From Magnetococcales bacterium (lineage in GTDB: Bacteria; Pseudomonadota; Magnetococcia; Magnetococcales; Magnetaquicoccaceae), in NCBI GenBank assembly GCA_015231755.1, contig JADGAZ010000018.1:1-64000 (forward strand): a stretch of DNA of 64,000 nt. Reading direction: 5' to 3'. The notes beneath the pieces were generated by a model. That model saw only the letters and a program-made list of their open reading frames with translations. It did not search any database and had not been told where the DNA came from. Shown here one piece after another: positions 54,232 through 60,956 of this stretch. The stretch's first letter is position 1; the number at the start of each line of letters is the position of its first letter. The translations under genes and the position numbers were made by a program.

Positions 54232-54685
54232 GCATCAAAAAAAAGCGCGGATTCCTGTGAGGGAGTCCGCGCCTACTTCTTGCAACACTCTTCTTCCTGC
54301 CATTACTCGCCATCCATCGCCTTTATTATCCCTGCCATACTGACTGACATCTGTGAATCAACGCCATCAGCCTGATCAAAGCCTGTGGAGCGTTCAATTT
54401 CGCCACAATAAATTATATTAAGTATTTTTAAAAAATATAATCATTATTTATGTTAAGATAAGAATCTAATAGCAGGATAAAAATGATAATAAATGAACCA
54501 TAAACCATGCTTAAAATAATCAATTATTCTTGAATACGGTAATTAATAACAAAGAACAATAAGACAAAAAAAATTAACACTTGCAACATATTTTTCAATC
54601 GTGATAGCCTGCATCTGCTAACAACATATAAATAATTATAATTATTAAATAACACCCCGCAATCACACACATCAGGAGGACCACC
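54232..54685. other. AT-rich intergenic region before the NTPase gene
   Basis: About 450 bp with no gene. The first 60 bp hold the ahcY hairpin; from about 54400 the sequence becomes strongly A+T-rich, with runs such as ATAAATTATATTAAG and ATAATTATAATTATT. TATAAT at 54637-54642 is a possible -10 but has no good -35. An AGGAGG at 54674-54679, six bases before ATG 54686, is a strong ribosome-binding site. No tRNA, att repeat or integrase is visible. Confidence 0.6.
54245..54272 (+). terminator. Hairpin after ahcY
   Basis: GCGCGGA (54245-54251) pairs with TCCGCGC (54266-54272), with partial pairing further in. An A-run precedes it on the plus strand (T-run on the minus strand), so it would terminate minus-strand transcription better than ahcY. 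Confidence 0.5.
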
Positions 54686-57553
54686 ATGCCCAACAAGACA
54701 GCAGAGAACATCCAGTTTTTTTTCAAAAAGCTACAATATACGGATCTAAATACTCAAAGAGATGCGATTGACAACAAAACAAACCACCTCGCAAACATCT
54801 ATTCAAAGATGCAGGATGATCTTAATCTATTCTTCTTCAATGATATCAACAGCAACGAATGGCTAAGATCCATGTATGTTGTACCCAATCACGAGAACAC
54901 ACCAGAAATTAACGACTGTTACGTTGATTATTTCAAATATTTACTACAACTCAAGAGGCTAAAAAATCCGGTCGACACATTCACAAACATGATCACCTCA
55001 CCGTTATTGTTAAACGAGAAGATCATCATGGCAGGATGCCCAGGAACCGGAAAATCATCACTGATCAATCATCTTTCAAGGACTTTAAATATAGAATCAA
55101 CCATCATTTCATCGTCGAACTTCGATAATTTTAACTCCACCAATAAAAATGAAATAATGGATCGCATTCTCAACGAGATCGAATCGGAAACAGAAACAAA
55201 ATCTCAAGGAAACATCCATAACAGAATCAGACAACTACAAAAGATAAAAGACAAGAAAATAATCCTACATTTTATTGATAATATAGACAGAACCAGAAAC
55301 ACTCCAGTTGAACAACTCGTCTTTGAGACAGCTTTCAATCTACATGATTCTTTGATTCAGAAAGATACAATCAATAGTACAAAGTGGATCTTCGTTATTT
55401 CATTAAGAAGAAGCACACTGTTTCAACTCTTTGTTGACCAGAAATCTGAATTTGTACGCAAGGCCCATAAAATTTTTCTACTCCCTCCACCTCCTCTTGC
55501 GGAAGTCTTTGAGAAACGCCTGGCAGCTATGGAGATTTATGCGCACAAGTTCATTCACAACAATCCAGTTATCGCGAAAGTAAGAATTGAACACGAAGGA
55601 AGGGAATACCATGTTGAGATAACAAGAAAAGACGCTTTCTTACTTCTGAAACAGTTCATGAACAATCTCGATGAAGAAGCTTACGCCTATTTGCATAATA
55701 TTACTCTTGGAGGAGTCAGATCACAACTCAGAATATTCCCAGAAATCCTGAAAACAAAATCCTTCTCAGAATCCAGAATCTCTATTGCAATCATAGGGCT
55801 AATTAAAGATGTTTATTGTAAAACAAAAACTTATGACAATCAAATAAACGAAAAAATAACCCAGAAAGATATTATCTATGCGCTTGATGGATTCCCATTC
55901 GCCATTCTTGATAACAATCTTGATTTCATTTGCGATCAGAATCTGTTCGACAACCTTCAATCCAATGACCACAATGACGACTTCTCAAACACGATCCACA
56001 CAAAAAATGAGAAATACAAAACACGTCCCAGATGGCAAAACTTCCTTGTAAAGATAAGGATACTTCAATATCTGACAATCAAATACTCAAGACTCATTGA
56101 CGAAGATTCTGGCGAATGCCTCACTTCCATACTGTATCAGTTCCAAAAGATCGGATACGATGAAAAAGATATAACTTTAGCTCTTATCTCTTTAATCAAT
56201 TCACGACTGGTTTTGAGTACGGATCTGAGAGGAAAAAATATTCGCTATAACAAGTTGGAACATATCGTCGTATCCCCCCTCGGCACCTATTATATGGAAA
56301 AGGTTCTCGACTCTTTTGCCTATTACGAAACTATAGTCGCCCATTGCCCCGTCAATTTCCAAATTCTGGGCAACTTTGGAACCAAAAGAAGATATTCATC
56401 TTATCATGTTGCAGAAATGATTAGAATAATTCAATTGGCTGAAACGACTGAAGAGTTCTATGCTACCAGAAACGAAGGCATCCACCTGCTAAACATGATT
56501 CGCAAAGAATATTTATGGAAAGAAATGAAAAATTTATGGTATACTGTCTCCAAAGGATTCTATCGTGACAACGAATCCGACAACAAGGGGCGAGAAATCT
56601 TAAAGAAACTTCCAATAATGGGTTATGATTTCGATACATCTTACAAAGTGGATGAGCAATGCAAAAAATGCTTGTCCTTGCTATTAAGAACAGATCCTGC
56701 ACGATTCAGGAATCCCTATCATTGCGACTCCTGGAGAAAAGAAAATATCAATCTCATCAAACCAGAACAGGAACAAACAATAGGTTACGAACTGTTTTTC
56801 ATGCTGAAAATCGGAGACACGAAACCCCTTCTCGACGGTTATCCAGACTGTGAGAATACTTTCTGTTCAGCAGGCAGCATTATCGAAAAAATCAGATTTC
56901 TTGGAGGGGAACGCTTCAATGGCACTTCTGTGGCGAACAATTTACTGAACCTTGACAAAATATTCATTAAAACACTGTTCAAAACGGCAGAAAAATTATG
57001 TTCAGAAAATAATCATATCAGATTCCTCTCCATCAACCTGGCTCAAGAAACATTTGAAAGCCAAAAGAATATAGAAATAACTCTCAACCAATTAACAAAT
57101 GAAACTTCATGCAGAAAAATTATCTTTGAGATACCTGAAGAACATAATCCCAGTCAATTCGTTCATTCAATATCAAAGATAATATCAATTTTTCACGAGG
57201 ACCAAACACTCAAAATCGGAAAGGATGATATCCTATCCAAAAAAGCAACAGCCACCGAACATTATTATACAAAAGACATTATGAGACATGTCGCCTTTGA
57301 GAAACTGGACTGGGAAACCTTTCAACAGATGCACGACGACCTGGAAATGCATAAAAGACTCGCTGATGTCATCCTAGGCAGGTGCAAAGCGATGCAAGAG
57401 CATGGTGGATATTTTGTTGTGGAGGGGGTACAGGAGAGACATATGGAATTCATCTTGAATCTGTTCAATATCCCTCCTGCCAATAGTGAGATCCCACCTT
57501 ACAGACCGAATAATCTATGCATTCAGTCCAACAAACTGGCCTTCAAGAATTGA
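54686..57553 (+). CDS. P-loop NTPase with C-terminal degenerate EAL-like domain (unknown system)
   Basis: 955 residues, soluble. Residues 1-100: no match seen. NTPase module: Walker A AGCPGTGKSS (116-125), Walker B IILHFIDNIDR (192-202), a sensor-like WIFVISLRRS (234-243); the order fits STAND/AAA-type ATPases. Residues about 450-545 look like a winged helix (ILYQFQKIGYDEKDITLAL then NKLEHIVVSPLGTYYMEKV). The C-terminus (about 690-930) aligns by eye with EAL domains: TIGYELFF (E702), LSINLAQ (N784), IFEIPEE (E815), GKDDIL (D847, D848), FEKLDWETF (K873), FVVEGVQERH (E913); the usual QGY glutamine is missing. Codons rich in A/T (AGA, ATA, TTA) unlike the neighbours. AGGAGG six bases before ATG. 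Function unknown. Confidence 0.8.
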   Translation: MPNKTAENIQFFFKKLQYTDLNTQRDAIDNKTNHLANIYSKMQDDLNLFFFNDINSNEWLRSMYVVPNHENTPEINDCYVDYFKYLLQLKRLKNPVDTFTNMITSPLLLNEKIIMAGCPGTGKSSLINHLSRTLNIESTIISSSNFDNFNSTNKNEIMDRILNEIESETETKSQGNIHNRIRQLQKIKDKKIILHFIDNIDRTRNTPVEQLVFETAFNLHDSLIQKDTINSTKWIFVISLRRSTLFQLFVDQKSEFVRKAHKIFLLPPPPLAEVFEKRLAAMEIYAHKFIHNNPVIAKVRIEHEGREYHVEITRKDAFLLLKQFMNNLDEEAYAYLHNITLGGVRSQLRIFPEILKTKSFSESRISIAIIGLIKDVYCKTKTYDNQINEKITQKDIIYALDGFPFAILDNNLDFICDQNLFDNLQSNDHNDDFSNTIHTKNEKYKTRPRWQNFLVKIRILQYLTIKYSRLIDEDSGECLTSILYQFQKIGYDEKDITLALISLINSRLVLSTDLRGKNIRYNKLEHIVVSPLGTYYMEKVLDSFAYYETIVAHCPVNFQILGNFGTKRRYSSYHVAEMIRIIQLAETTEEFYATRNEGIHLLNMIRKEYLWKEMKNLWYTVSKGFYRDNESDNKGREILKKLPIMGYDFDTSYKVDEQCKKCLSLLLRTDPARFRNPYHCDSWRKENINLIKPEQEQTIGYELFFMLKIGDTKPLLDGYPDCENTFCSAGSIIEKIRFLGGERFNGTSVANNLLNLDKIFIKTLFKTAEKLCSENNHIRFLSINLAQETFESQKNIEITLNQLTNETSCRKIIFEIPEEHNPSQFVHSISKIISIFHEDQTLKIGKDDILSKKATATEHYYTKDIMRHVAFEKLDWETFQQMHDDLEMHKRLADVILGRCKAMQEHGGYFVVEGVQERHMEFILNLFNIPPANSEIPPYRPNNLCIQSNKLAFKN

Positions 57554-57592
57554 ACTACAGGATTTCCAACAGATCATCATAAAACAAACAAA

Positions 57593-57628
57593 GGGGTGGT
57601 TTATGTCCTCTTCAACATAAACCACCCC
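57593..57628. terminator. Bidirectional terminator between the NTPase gene and rne
   Basis: A perfect 14 bp stem, GGGGTGGTTTATGT (57593-57606) with ACATAAACCACCCC (57615-57628), and an 8-base loop. It separates the convergent NTPase gene and rne. On the minus strand it is followed by the T-rich TTTGTTTGTTTT, fitting rne termination best. Confidence 0.75.
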
Positions 57629-57644
57629 CATTCATCTAACCCGC

Positions 57645-60600
57645 TCACTCCTCCCAGGGAGGAGAAAGATCTTCGGATCGGATTGCCAATTCCGCTTTGG
57701 GCTTGGGCTCCGGCTTAGGTTCGGGCTTGGGCTCCGGCTTAGGTTCGGGCTTGGGCTCCGGCTTAGGTTCGGGCTTGGCCTCTGGCGCGGAATCGGATTT
57801 CGATTCCGCTTTGGGCTTGGGTTCCGCCTTGGGCCGGGGTTGGGATTTGGGGGTCTGATCCGGCTCCGCAGCAGGACTCACCTCCCCGTCTGCGGGGGGT
57901 GCCTCCCCTGATGAAGCAGCGGACTCTTCCCCTTCGACGGCGCCAGCGGCTCGACGGGAGGCGGCGGTGGAACGACGGCGCCGTCTCCGACGGGGGGCCC
58001 GGGTCTTGCCTTCCGAGGTGACGGCTGACTCCTCCTCGCCGCCACTCTCCTCCTCCGGTGCCTCGGTGGTGTCCGGCTCTTCGGATACGACAGGACGGGG
58101 AGGCGTGGCCTTTTTCACCGATCGGGGTGCCTTGGTGACCTCGGGTTGGGCCAGGATGAACAGCCCTGGGGCGGCTTCCATGGCCTGCACCCCCGGAATC
58201 ACGGGTGTGGACTCCTCCTCTTCCTCATCGTCGCCTTCGTCGCCGGACTCGATATCGGCCTGCAACTCACCGGGACGCAACGCGACCGAGGATTGAGCCG
58301 ACTTGCGACGACGACGACGACGACGTTTCTTCTTTTCCACCGTCTCCGTGGGAGCGGCGGTTTCCTGCTCCCCCTCTTCCCCGGGAGCAGTGGTCATGGC
58401 GGGCTGAGCGGTCGGCTTGGGGGTGGACTGCGGCTTGACTTCGGCCTTGGCGCGCACCGGTTCCTGAACCGAGGCCGGCGGGGCGGAAGACGCGCCGTTC
58501 CGGGCCGAACGGGATGAACCACCCGCGTTTTTGTTGCCCTTCTGCTCGGCCAACTCTTCCGGCGTGGGGGCGACCTTGGGACGCTCGGCCCGCTCCACCC
58601 GGTATTCCGGAGTTTGCAGGGTTTCGTCCCCCTGAATCAAAAGCGGTACCTGACTCTCCCCCTCCAGGGCGGCCAACTGGGCGCGCTTGTGGTTGAGCAG
58701 ATAGTTGGCCACATCCAGGGAGGTGCGATACACGATGCGCGTATAACGGTTCTTAGAGACATCCTCTTCCAGCATGCGGAACAGATGAATGGCCGTGGAC
58801 TCCACGGAACGGATCGTACCCAACCCCTTGCAGCGGGGACACTCCATGCGATTGGTTTCGCTGAAGGTGGGTTTCATGCGCTGACGGGACAACTCCAACA
58901 GGCCGAACTGGGAAATCTTGCCCAGTTGAATCTTGGCGCGATCCAATTTCAAGGCTTCGCGCATCTGGCGTTCCACCTCCAGATTGTGCTTCTTGTCCTC
59001 CATGTCGATGAAATCGATCACGATCAATCCGCCCAGATCCCGCAAACGCAACTGCCGGGCAATCTCCTCGGTGGCCTGGAGATTGGTCTTGAAGGCGGTG
59101 GTCTCCACGTCCTTCTCCCGGGTGGAGCGACCGGAGTTGATGTCGATGGTCACCATGGCCTCGGTAGGCTCGATGACGATGTACCCTCCGGATTTCAGTT
59201 GAATCACCCGTTCATGCATGGACTCGATCTGATTTTCGATCTGAAAACGGGAAAAAATCGGCTGCGGTTCCTTGTAGGGCTGAACCACCTTCATGTAGCG
59301 GGGCATGAGCAGACGCATGAAATCCTTGCCGCGCCGATAGCCCTCATGACCTTCGATGAGAATTTCGGTCATGTCGGTGCTGTAGAGATCCCGGATGGTG
59401 CGCATGATGAGATCCCCCTCCTCATGGATCACCATGGGCCCTTCGGCCTGGGCGGCATTATCGAGGATTTTCTTCCACAAGCGCAGCAGATAGTTCAGAT
59501 CCCGGATAATCTCCCGTTTGGTGCGTCCCAATCCGGCGGTGCGAATGATGAGACTCACCTGACCGGGAATGGCGATGGTCTCGATGATTTCTTTGAGTTT
59601 CTTGCGTTCCAGGCTGTCGGTGATCTTGCGGGAGATGCCTCCGCCCCCTTCGTTTTCCGGCAGAAGCACGGCATAGCGTCCAGCCAGGGACAGATTGGTG
59701 GTCAACGAGGCACCCTTGTTGCCCCGTGGCTCCTTGACCACCTGCACCAGCAGTTTCTGTCCCCGGGTGAGAATCTTCTGAATGGGCAGCCGTTGCCGGC
59801 GGGGAAAACGTTTGAAGGTGTCGAGCAACGGGGAGCCGTCGTCATCGATCTCCACCTCGTTGTCCAGATCGTCCGGGAGGGATCCGGATTCACCGCCAGA
59901 GAGGTGCCCGGACTCCTCATCACCGGCACCCGCTTCTTCGTAGAGATCTTCGCCGGACGGCTCACCACCGGCAGCATCGTCGCCGGACTCACCATCATCG
60001 CCAGACATCGCCGCGTCGGTGGACTCTTCGCCGGACTCGTCACCATCGGCAATCGCCGCGCCGGAAGCCTCTTCCCCATCCTCCACCTCTTCGAGCGGAT
60101 ATGCCGGAAAATCGGACGCCTCCACGTCGGTCTCGTGTGTTTCGGACTCCTGGCAGGACTCCAGCACGCCATCCGGATCCACGGATACGATTGCCACCGG
60201 CATCACCACTTCCGCGAAGGCTGGCGTCCGGATTGCGGCCATGACGGGTTCCGCCGCAGATTCGGGAAGATCGACCACCGGGACCGGCACCGCGGCGGAT
60301 GTGGGCGCCTGAAGCTTTACCGGTTTTTCCGGCTGCTTTTCCTCATCCTCATCGTCATAATCTTCATCGTACTCCCCTTCCTCATCGTCTTCGGGTTCCG
60401 GGAGAGGCAAAGGCAGATATTCACCCCGTTCCCCCTTGTCGTTGGTGGGGTAGTATTTGGGATGAATGTCGTTGACCGAAAGGAATCCCTGGCGTCCGCC
60501 GCCGAAGTCAATGAAAGCGGCCTGAAGAGACGGCTCGACACGGGAAACGCGAGCCAGATAGATGTTGCCTTTGATTTGCTCCCGGCTTGATGTTTCAATG

Positions 60601-60692
60601 TCCAGATCGATCAGTTTGTTGTCCTGGACGATGGCGACGCGGATCTCTTCCGGATGGGTGGCATCCACCAGCATACGCTTGGTCATGGTCAT
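57645..60692 (-). CDS. rne: Ribonuclease E
   Basis: 1015 residues. Endoribonuclease that starts mRNA decay and processes rRNA/tRNA; scaffold of the degradosome. MLVDATHPEEIRVAIV begins the RNase H-like part; the S1 domain (GNIYLARVSRVEPSLQAAFIDFG... and a later RRQRLPIQKILTRGQKLLVQV) is split by a highly acidic insertion of about 200 residues (about 90-300). Catalytic DINSGRST and VIDFIDMEDKKH, and the zinc-link CPRCKG, are intact. The C-terminal 300 residues are Pro/Glu/Lys/Arg-rich and disordered, with Arg-rich RNA-binding patches (KKKRRRRRRRKS) and a KPEP repeat. ATG 60692 has AGGAGAG 12 bases upstream; ATG 60686 is an alternative. Divergent from rluC, as in E. coli. Confidence 0.95.
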   Translation of the reverse strand: MTMTKRMLVDATHPEEIRVAIVQDNKLIDLDIETSSREQIKGNIYLARVSRVEPSLQAAFIDFGGGRQGFLSVNDIHPKYYPTNDKGERGEYLPLPLPEPEDDEEGEYDEDYDDEDEEKQPEKPVKLQAPTSAAVPVPVVDLPESAAEPVMAAIRTPAFAEVVMPVAIVSVDPDGVLESCQESETHETDVEASDFPAYPLEEVEDGEEASGAAIADGDESGEESTDAAMSGDDGESGDDAAGGEPSGEDLYEEAGAGDEESGHLSGGESGSLPDDLDNEVEIDDDGSPLLDTFKRFPRRQRLPIQKILTRGQKLLVQVVKEPRGNKGASLTTNLSLAGRYAVLLPENEGGGGISRKITDSLERKKLKEIIETIAIPGQVSLIIRTAGLGRTKREIIRDLNYLLRLWKKILDNAAQAEGPMVIHEEGDLIMRTIRDLYSTDMTEILIEGHEGYRRGKDFMRLLMPRYMKVVQPYKEPQPIFSRFQIENQIESMHERVIQLKSGGYIVIEPTEAMVTIDINSGRSTREKDVETTAFKTNLQATEEIARQLRLRDLGGLIVIDFIDMEDKKHNLEVERQMREALKLDRAKIQLGKISQFGLLELSRQRMKPTFSETNRMECPRCKGLGTIRSVESTAIHLFRMLEEDVSKNRYTRIVYRTSLDVANYLLNHKRAQLAALEGESQVPLLIQGDETLQTPEYRVERAERPKVAPTPEELAEQKGNKNAGGSSRSARNGASSAPPASVQEPVRAKAEVKPQSTPKPTAQPAMTTAPGEEGEQETAAPTETVEKKKRRRRRRRKSAQSSVALRPGELQADIESGDEGDDEEEEESTPVIPGVQAMEAAPGLFILAQPEVTKAPRSVKKATPPRPVVSEEPDTTEAPEEESGGEEESAVTSEGKTRAPRRRRRRRSTAASRRAAGAVEGEESAASSGEAPPADGEVSPAAEPDQTPKSQPRPKAEPKPKAESKSDSAPEAKPEPKPEPKPEPKPEPKPEPKPEPKPKAELAIRSEDLSPPWEE
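57699..57778 (-). repeat. 24-bp tandem repeat encoding KPEP units in rne
   Basis: Three exact 24-base copies (57699-57722, 57723-57746, 57747-57770) plus a partial fourth, each coding for eight residues of alternating Lys-Pro-Glu-Pro near the RNase E C-terminus. Length is a multiple of three, so copy-number change would keep the frame. Confidence 0.85.
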
Positions 60693-60956
60693 GGTTGGGC
60701 TTGCTCTCCTGTATGGATTGGCCTTGAGATCCGCCGCACAATCCGCGACTCGCATCGGTGGCGAGCTCCTCGGAATGCAACGGAAAACAGGCGGTTTCGG
60801 GTCATCCGGGGCCAAAGCCGCCGGGATAAAATCATCAATCGTGAATCAAGAAAAAATGGCGCGAGGTGGATGAGACGATCCACCCACGTCAAGCCGGGGC
60901 GGGGATGTCCCATCACTTCCTCAAATCAAATAATATCATTATAGGATCTTTTATCC

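Follow-up and report, generated by a model that had tools for sequence, protein, structure and literature searches.

An accessory gene of Magnetococcales encodes a predicted P-loop NTPase with a very divergent EAL-type domain and an apparently retained metal centre

The window, that is, the whole 64,000-nucleotide stretch of Magnetococcales DNA analysed here, contains a gene for a 955-residue protein (P0001) that we suggest, with a probability of roughly 0.55, is an NTPase-gated, metal-dependent phosphodiesterase effector, probably directed against mobile elements and with a substrate that is likely not c-di-GMP bound in the usual mode. Judged by sequence, the N-terminal two thirds of P0001 is an AAA+/STAND-type P-loop NTPase. 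Profile comparisons make a strong case that the C-terminal domain is a very divergent relative of EAL domains, with a predicted EAL-type barrel in which the metal-binding and catalytic residues appear to be retained.

An AT-rich accessory gene between ahcY and rne

The P0001 reading frame is intact over its 955 codons, begins with ATG and is immediately preceded by an AGGAGG ribosome-binding site (Table 1). It is the sole gene between ahcY and the convergent rne, with rpoN, rapZ and metK located upstream, and it is distinct from the adjoining genes both in GC content (0.373, compared with 0.58–0.64) and in GC3 (0.41, compared with 0.71–0.78). Together with the flanking hairpin and palindrome, these features confirm the single-gene, AT-rich and terminator-bounded setting described in the first-pass annotation. 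The palindrome has a T-rich flank and is likely the joint terminator of the P0001 gene and rne, the latter of which (57645–60815, reverse strand) encodes an RNase E/G whose long C-terminal tail is of low complexity and carries EPKPEPKP repeats. No defence genes were seen in the vicinity of the P0001 gene, where the surroundings consist of housekeeping genes.

In the sister species G006, the AhcY of which is 98% identical, the ahcY–rne junction is gene-less and holds about 410 unrelated bp, and ahcY also adjoins rne in a second relative, such that the segment bearing the P0001 gene is considered to be accessory. The region following ahcY varies among genomes of the same genus, being AT-rich in G005 (L025) and containing a repeat-rich frame in G002 (L031), and the ahcY junction may represent a recurrent insertion site. 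Transposon cargo was ruled out, as no terminal repeats were found, and an RNA element was considered for the locus and rejected.

A single full-length homologue of P0001 was identified, P0003, which shares 27% identity and is encoded by an AT-rich gene at a different locus in Magnetococcales bacterium WMHbin3 (G002), a member of the same genus as the P0001 host. The P0001-type gene is therefore present in two of 48 Magnetococcales genomes, at different loci. The search also took in whole genomes of the order, the phylum and two further classes; no further full-length relatives were present in plasmids, phages, IMG/VR or GTDB contigs, leaving P0003 as the sole one, and two weak matches from other genomes, with E values of 2e-4 and 1e-3, are limited to the P-loop. 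In G002, the P0003 gene is adjoined by a gene on the reverse strand (L005:10424–12166) for an FtsK/HerA-like ATPase that matches the SspH and HerA models of PADLOC. Overall, the P0001 gene was probably acquired and is sporadic in what is a magnetotactic-type bacterium.

Table 1. Coordinates of the P0001 gene, its protein features and related elements (window positions unless a locus is named; residues are those of P0001).
Feature	Position	Strand	Details	Basis
P0001 gene	54686..57553	+	AAA+/STAND-like NTPase carrying an EAL-type domain at its C-terminus	27%-identical full-length homologue
Terminator-like hairpin past ahcY	54245..54272	+	common to sister genome G006	
Near-perfect palindrome, terminator-like, between P0001 gene and rne	57592..57629	.	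common to G006	
Segment absent from the G006 ahcY–rne junction	54307..57593 (approximate)	.	~410 unrelated bp in its place	
Walker A	55034..55060	+	GCPGTGKSS, residues 117–125	sequence, pair alignment
Walker B	55259..55288	+	IILHFIDNID, residues 192–201	sequence, pair alignment
Possible AAA+ sensor II	55709..55720	+	G-x(2-3)-R motif, G342–R345 (GGVR; GGNLR in P0003)	assigned by inspection
Putative winged-helix region	56033..56320	+	residues 450–545	W450 and LxKIRxLQYL conserved in the pair
EAL-type domain	56702..57550	+	residues 673–955	profile alignment, pair and linking-family comparison
EAL motif equivalent	56789..56803	+	E702-x-F704-x-M706 (ExLxR, Arg to Met)	alignments
QGY glutamine equivalent	57524..57526	+	Q947	alignments
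EAL–NACHT gene of L066	L066:4499-9856 (G002:C83)		WD40 repeats found in L066	

The NTPase part of P0001

The Pfam AAA_22 model matches both P0001 (E 3.3e-7) and P0003 (E 2.3e-7) above its cut-off, and P0001 additionally shows weak Pfam matches to KAP_NTPase and nSTAND3. The Walker A and Walker B motifs that the first-pass annotation had placed at residues 116–125 and 192–202 are present in the pair alignment (Table 1). Within Walker B of P0001, Asn199 occupies the position of the usual AAA+ catalytic Glu. The NACHT module (PF05729) finds no Pfam match in either P0001 or P0003, and no significantly related solved structure was found for the NTPase part of P0001.

A CxxC motif at residues 659–662 (56660–56671) lies just N-terminal of the EAL-type domain, and Cys727 (56864–56866) lies within it; both are common to P0001 and P0003 and possibly form a metal site.

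The C-terminal domain is related to EAL domains

Neither Pfam nor NCBIfam yields an EAL match in P0001, whereas P0003 matches Pfam EAL in the correct register at E 0.031, below the curated cut-off. The EAL profile search that the first-pass annotation had called for nevertheless succeeds with hhalign, where a profile of P0001 and P0003 aligns in register with 43 Magnetococcales EAL domains at a score of 41.0 (P 1.5e-4). By comparison, 300 column shuffles of the pair profile reach a maximum of 28.0 (mean 16.6), and the reversed profile scores 13.8. An AlphaFold model of the P0003 domain, built from a two-sequence alignment and of low confidence (pLDDT 42), retrieves exclusively EAL structures among its 50 best matches when searched against the PDB with Foldseek, with a best E of 3.5e-5 and TM values of 0.41–0.49. 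The model of the domain of P0001 itself (pLDDT ~42) produces non-significant Foldseek matches, most of which are TIM barrels.

In the ranking of G002 proteins by Pfam EAL, a single protein resides between the true EALs and P0003. This 1785-aa protein, with a sub-cut-off match, combines an EAL-like domain with a NACHT NTPase, pentapeptide repeats and WD40 repeats. EAL domains of this EAL–NACHT type are found in eight of the 48 Magnetococcales genomes (L066, L098, L099, L100, L101, L102, L103 and L104), and a Walker A motif follows C-terminal to the EAL domain in all eight genes. In the five proteins scanned with Pfam, the NACHT module is invariably succeeded by pentapeptide repeats and is preceded by a NACHT N-terminal helical domain (NNH6, in some of them below cut-off). 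Strong matches to this linking family within a 399-genome sample of the phylum comprise the same eight. Those weaker matches that were examined, including the ones outside Magnetococcales, were discarded as canonical EALs devoid of Walker A, with the exception of a 68-aa fragment in G037.

The comparison with the NACHT-linked domains rests on HMMER and hhalign values. The linking-family HMM detects P0003 with 21.5 bits (E 5e-9) and P0001 with 11.0 bits (best domain E 8e-6), while the canonical EAL HMM scores lower for both (8.1 bits, E 8e-5 and 6.5 bits, E 3e-4, respectively). In turn, the linking family aligns with canonical EALs at an hhalign P of 9e-7, and its L066 member matches Pfam EAL at E 3.3e-5. 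On these sequence scores, the NACHT-linked domains, which likewise lack the ExLxR Arg, are the intermediate that joins P0001 and P0003 to canonical EAL domains. The C-terminal EAL domain claimed in the first-pass annotation is thus upheld by the shuffle-controlled profile match, by the P0003 Pfam match and by the linking family.

The reaction centre appears to be conserved and the substrate site altered

The residues E702, N784, E815, D847/D848, K873 and E913, whose order had led the first-pass annotation to propose an EAL domain, are identical in P0003 and in register with the 43 EAL domains. With the addition of E818 and Q947, these become nine metal, catalytic or loop-6-stabilising positions that are identical in the pair and in seven NACHT-linked domains, where they account for 9 of the 16 invariant columns of the nine-protein alignment, and that, with at most one exception each, are shared by the 43 canonical EALs. 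The pair is 30% identical over the aligned C-terminal positions; coincidence at nine of nine would by chance be expected at ~2e-5, a figure that is no formal probability, given that the alignment favours such matches. For EAL domains, the published checklist names four residues that contact the substrate (Q, R, D and D), seven that bind metal (E, N, E, D, K, E and Q) and two further glutamates, of which one belongs to loop 6 and the other coordinates water (PMC11537037).

Two elements of the earlier description require revision. The glutamine of QGY was thought to be missing, but is present as Q947, within the sequence NLCIQSNKL in P0001, NLHIQGHML in P0003 and LYIQGHGV in the NACHT proteins. 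In addition, the term degenerate does not suit a domain in which all nine residues are kept, the losses being confined to M706, at the position of the ExLxR Arg, and to the loop-6 motif, which reads DDILSK instead of DDFGTG. P0001 further carries a Gln at the second Glu of EGVE and large insertions relative to canonical EAL domains. Since the metal and catalytic set appears to be kept while the ExLxR Arg and loop 6 are changed, selection would seem to have acted to preserve the reaction centre and to have allowed the substrate site to change. Moreover, the ExLxR motif is determinative for c-di-GMP binding (PMC10333796), such that the loss of its Arg makes binding of c-di-GMP less likely.

Proposed function and alternative explanations

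We suggest that P0001 constitutes an accessory system of Magnetococcales that consists of one acquired gene, for which we infer the catalysis, the substrate, the gating by the ATPase and the role in defence. The N-terminal two thirds would act as an AAA+/STAND-like ATPase switch with a putative sensing region (~1–95 and 320–640), and the C-terminal third would form a TIM barrel of the EAL superfamily in which the metal centre and the catalytic glutamate are intact, but the substrate contacts are changed. The trigger would probably be an invading element that alters the nucleotide state or the assembly of the ATPase, and the barrel would thereby be switched on, released or assembled so as to hydrolyse a nucleotide phosphodiester. 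The substrate would probably not be canonically bound c-di-GMP, but may be a different nucleotide, either cyclic or linear. That a cyclic dinucleotide controls the NTPase is one among several options.

A role in defence is suggested, by analogy, by the architecture, the foreign composition and the patchy presence of the gene. The architecture unites an enzyme and an NTPase switch in one accessory gene, and a related domain occurs in NLR-like NACHT proteins, a group that includes members with demonstrated anti-phage activity (PMC12169576). The defence idea of the first-pass annotation gains indirect support from the related domains in NACHT–WD40 proteins, but none from the neighbouring housekeeping genes or from PADLOC, which matches neither P0001 nor P0003. 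Counting against an effector are also the silence of Pfam and NCBIfam on P0001, the low confidence of the models, the Asn in Walker B, the small number of known members, only two, and the fact that changes in loop 6 and in the ExLxR Arg occur in inactive EAL proteins as well.

The barrel could instead be a non-catalytic sensor that has c-di-GMP or some other nucleotide as its ligand and regulates the ATPase together with the winged-helix part in a manner resembling FimX or LapD, which we regard as unlikely, but not far-fetched. Inactive EAL receptors have usually lost metal or catalytic residues, whereas here the nine residues are kept across very divergent proteins. As all metal and catalytic positions tested are retained and the changes fall on substrate contacts, an enzyme with altered specificity is likelier than a dead c-di-GMP sensor. 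A sensor would be in keeping with the loss of the ExLxR Arg and of loop 6, with the common occurrence of inactive EAL receptors and the lower activity of EAL domains with a degenerate loop 6 (PMC10333796), and with c-di-GMP signalling in the host order, which has 6–28 ordinary EAL proteins per genome; for c-di-GMP in particular, however, the missing Arg belongs to the very motif that determines binding. An NTPase-regulated c-di-GMP phosphodiesterase that serves ordinary signalling in motility, biofilm formation or magnetotaxis, rather than defence, appears improbable. The metal centre is complete and c-di-GMP enzymes are present in 48 of 48 genomes, but such a role is difficult to reconcile with the sporadic presence (2/48), foreign composition and different loci of the gene, as well as with the missing c-di-GMP contact Arg.

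The two remaining explanations carry far less weight. That an unrelated fold came to resemble EAL by convergence, or merely by chance, would be consistent with the missing Pfam EAL match in P0001 and the non-significant matches of its own domain model, yet the shuffle-controlled profile match, the Foldseek result for P0003 and the NACHT-linked intermediates render it very improbable, and we reject it. A decaying or non-functional foreign gene, as the AT-richness and rarity might imply, is scarcely credible in light of 955 open codons, a ribosome-binding site and motif residues that are conserved at 27% identity.

Relationship to known systems

P0001 shares the predicted barrel order and all metal and catalytic positions with the EAL c-di-GMP phosphodiesterases (PF00563), such as RocR, DosP, BifA and YahA, but differs from them in falling below the Pfam cut-off, in M706, DDILSK, the Gln in EGVE and the large insertions, and in being fused to an NTPase rather than to GGDEF, PAS or REC domains. 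The altered loop 6 and substrate motif are reminiscent of the degenerate EAL receptors FimX, LapD and CsrD, in contrast to which P0001 retains the metal and catalytic residues. As in bNACHT and Avs proteins, an NTPase switch and an enzymatic domain are combined in one accessory gene, and it is the EAL–NACHT–pentapeptide/WD40 proteins of sister species that carry the EAL domain closest to that of P0001. Compared with bNACHT, however, the NTPase of P0001 is AAA_22-like, the order is reversed with the effector at the C-terminus, and the C-terminal sensor repeats are absent, the EAL-type domain itself reaching the C-terminus. With Orc1/Cdc6-clade AAA+ and KAP/nSTAND proteins, P0001 has in common Walker A and B, a likely sensor II and lid and a possible winged helix, but it is distinguished by the Asn for Glu in Walker B.

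The first-pass annotation knew of no named system with this layout, and none fits in PADLOC or NCBIfam. Likewise, no description of EAL fused to NACHT or STAND modules, or of EAL in phage defence, was found in the open-licence literature, where absence is no proof, and neither of two large surveys devoted to NTPase conflict systems mentions EAL. Both the fold and the principle of the switch are already known; as far as could be checked, what is new is their combination, along with the altered active site.

More tentatively, and at somewhat less than even odds, the Arg-less EAL phosphodiesterase may represent an undescribed class of NTPase-gated effector in Magnetococcales that became joined to different ATPase switches on two or more occasions, namely C-terminal to an AAA+ module and N-terminal to a NACHT-type module (eight genomes), and that would act against phages by eliminating a signalling nucleotide or a nucleotide pool. 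EAL domains are c-di-GMP enzymes under the control of sensory domains. If our proposal is correct, the EAL fold would be found to act on a new substrate and to take part in biological conflicts, and the NLR-related proteins of bacteria would gain an effector type that is undescribed in the literature searched. The NACHT-linked relatives in sister species suggest an unrecognised kind of nucleotide-cleaving effector.
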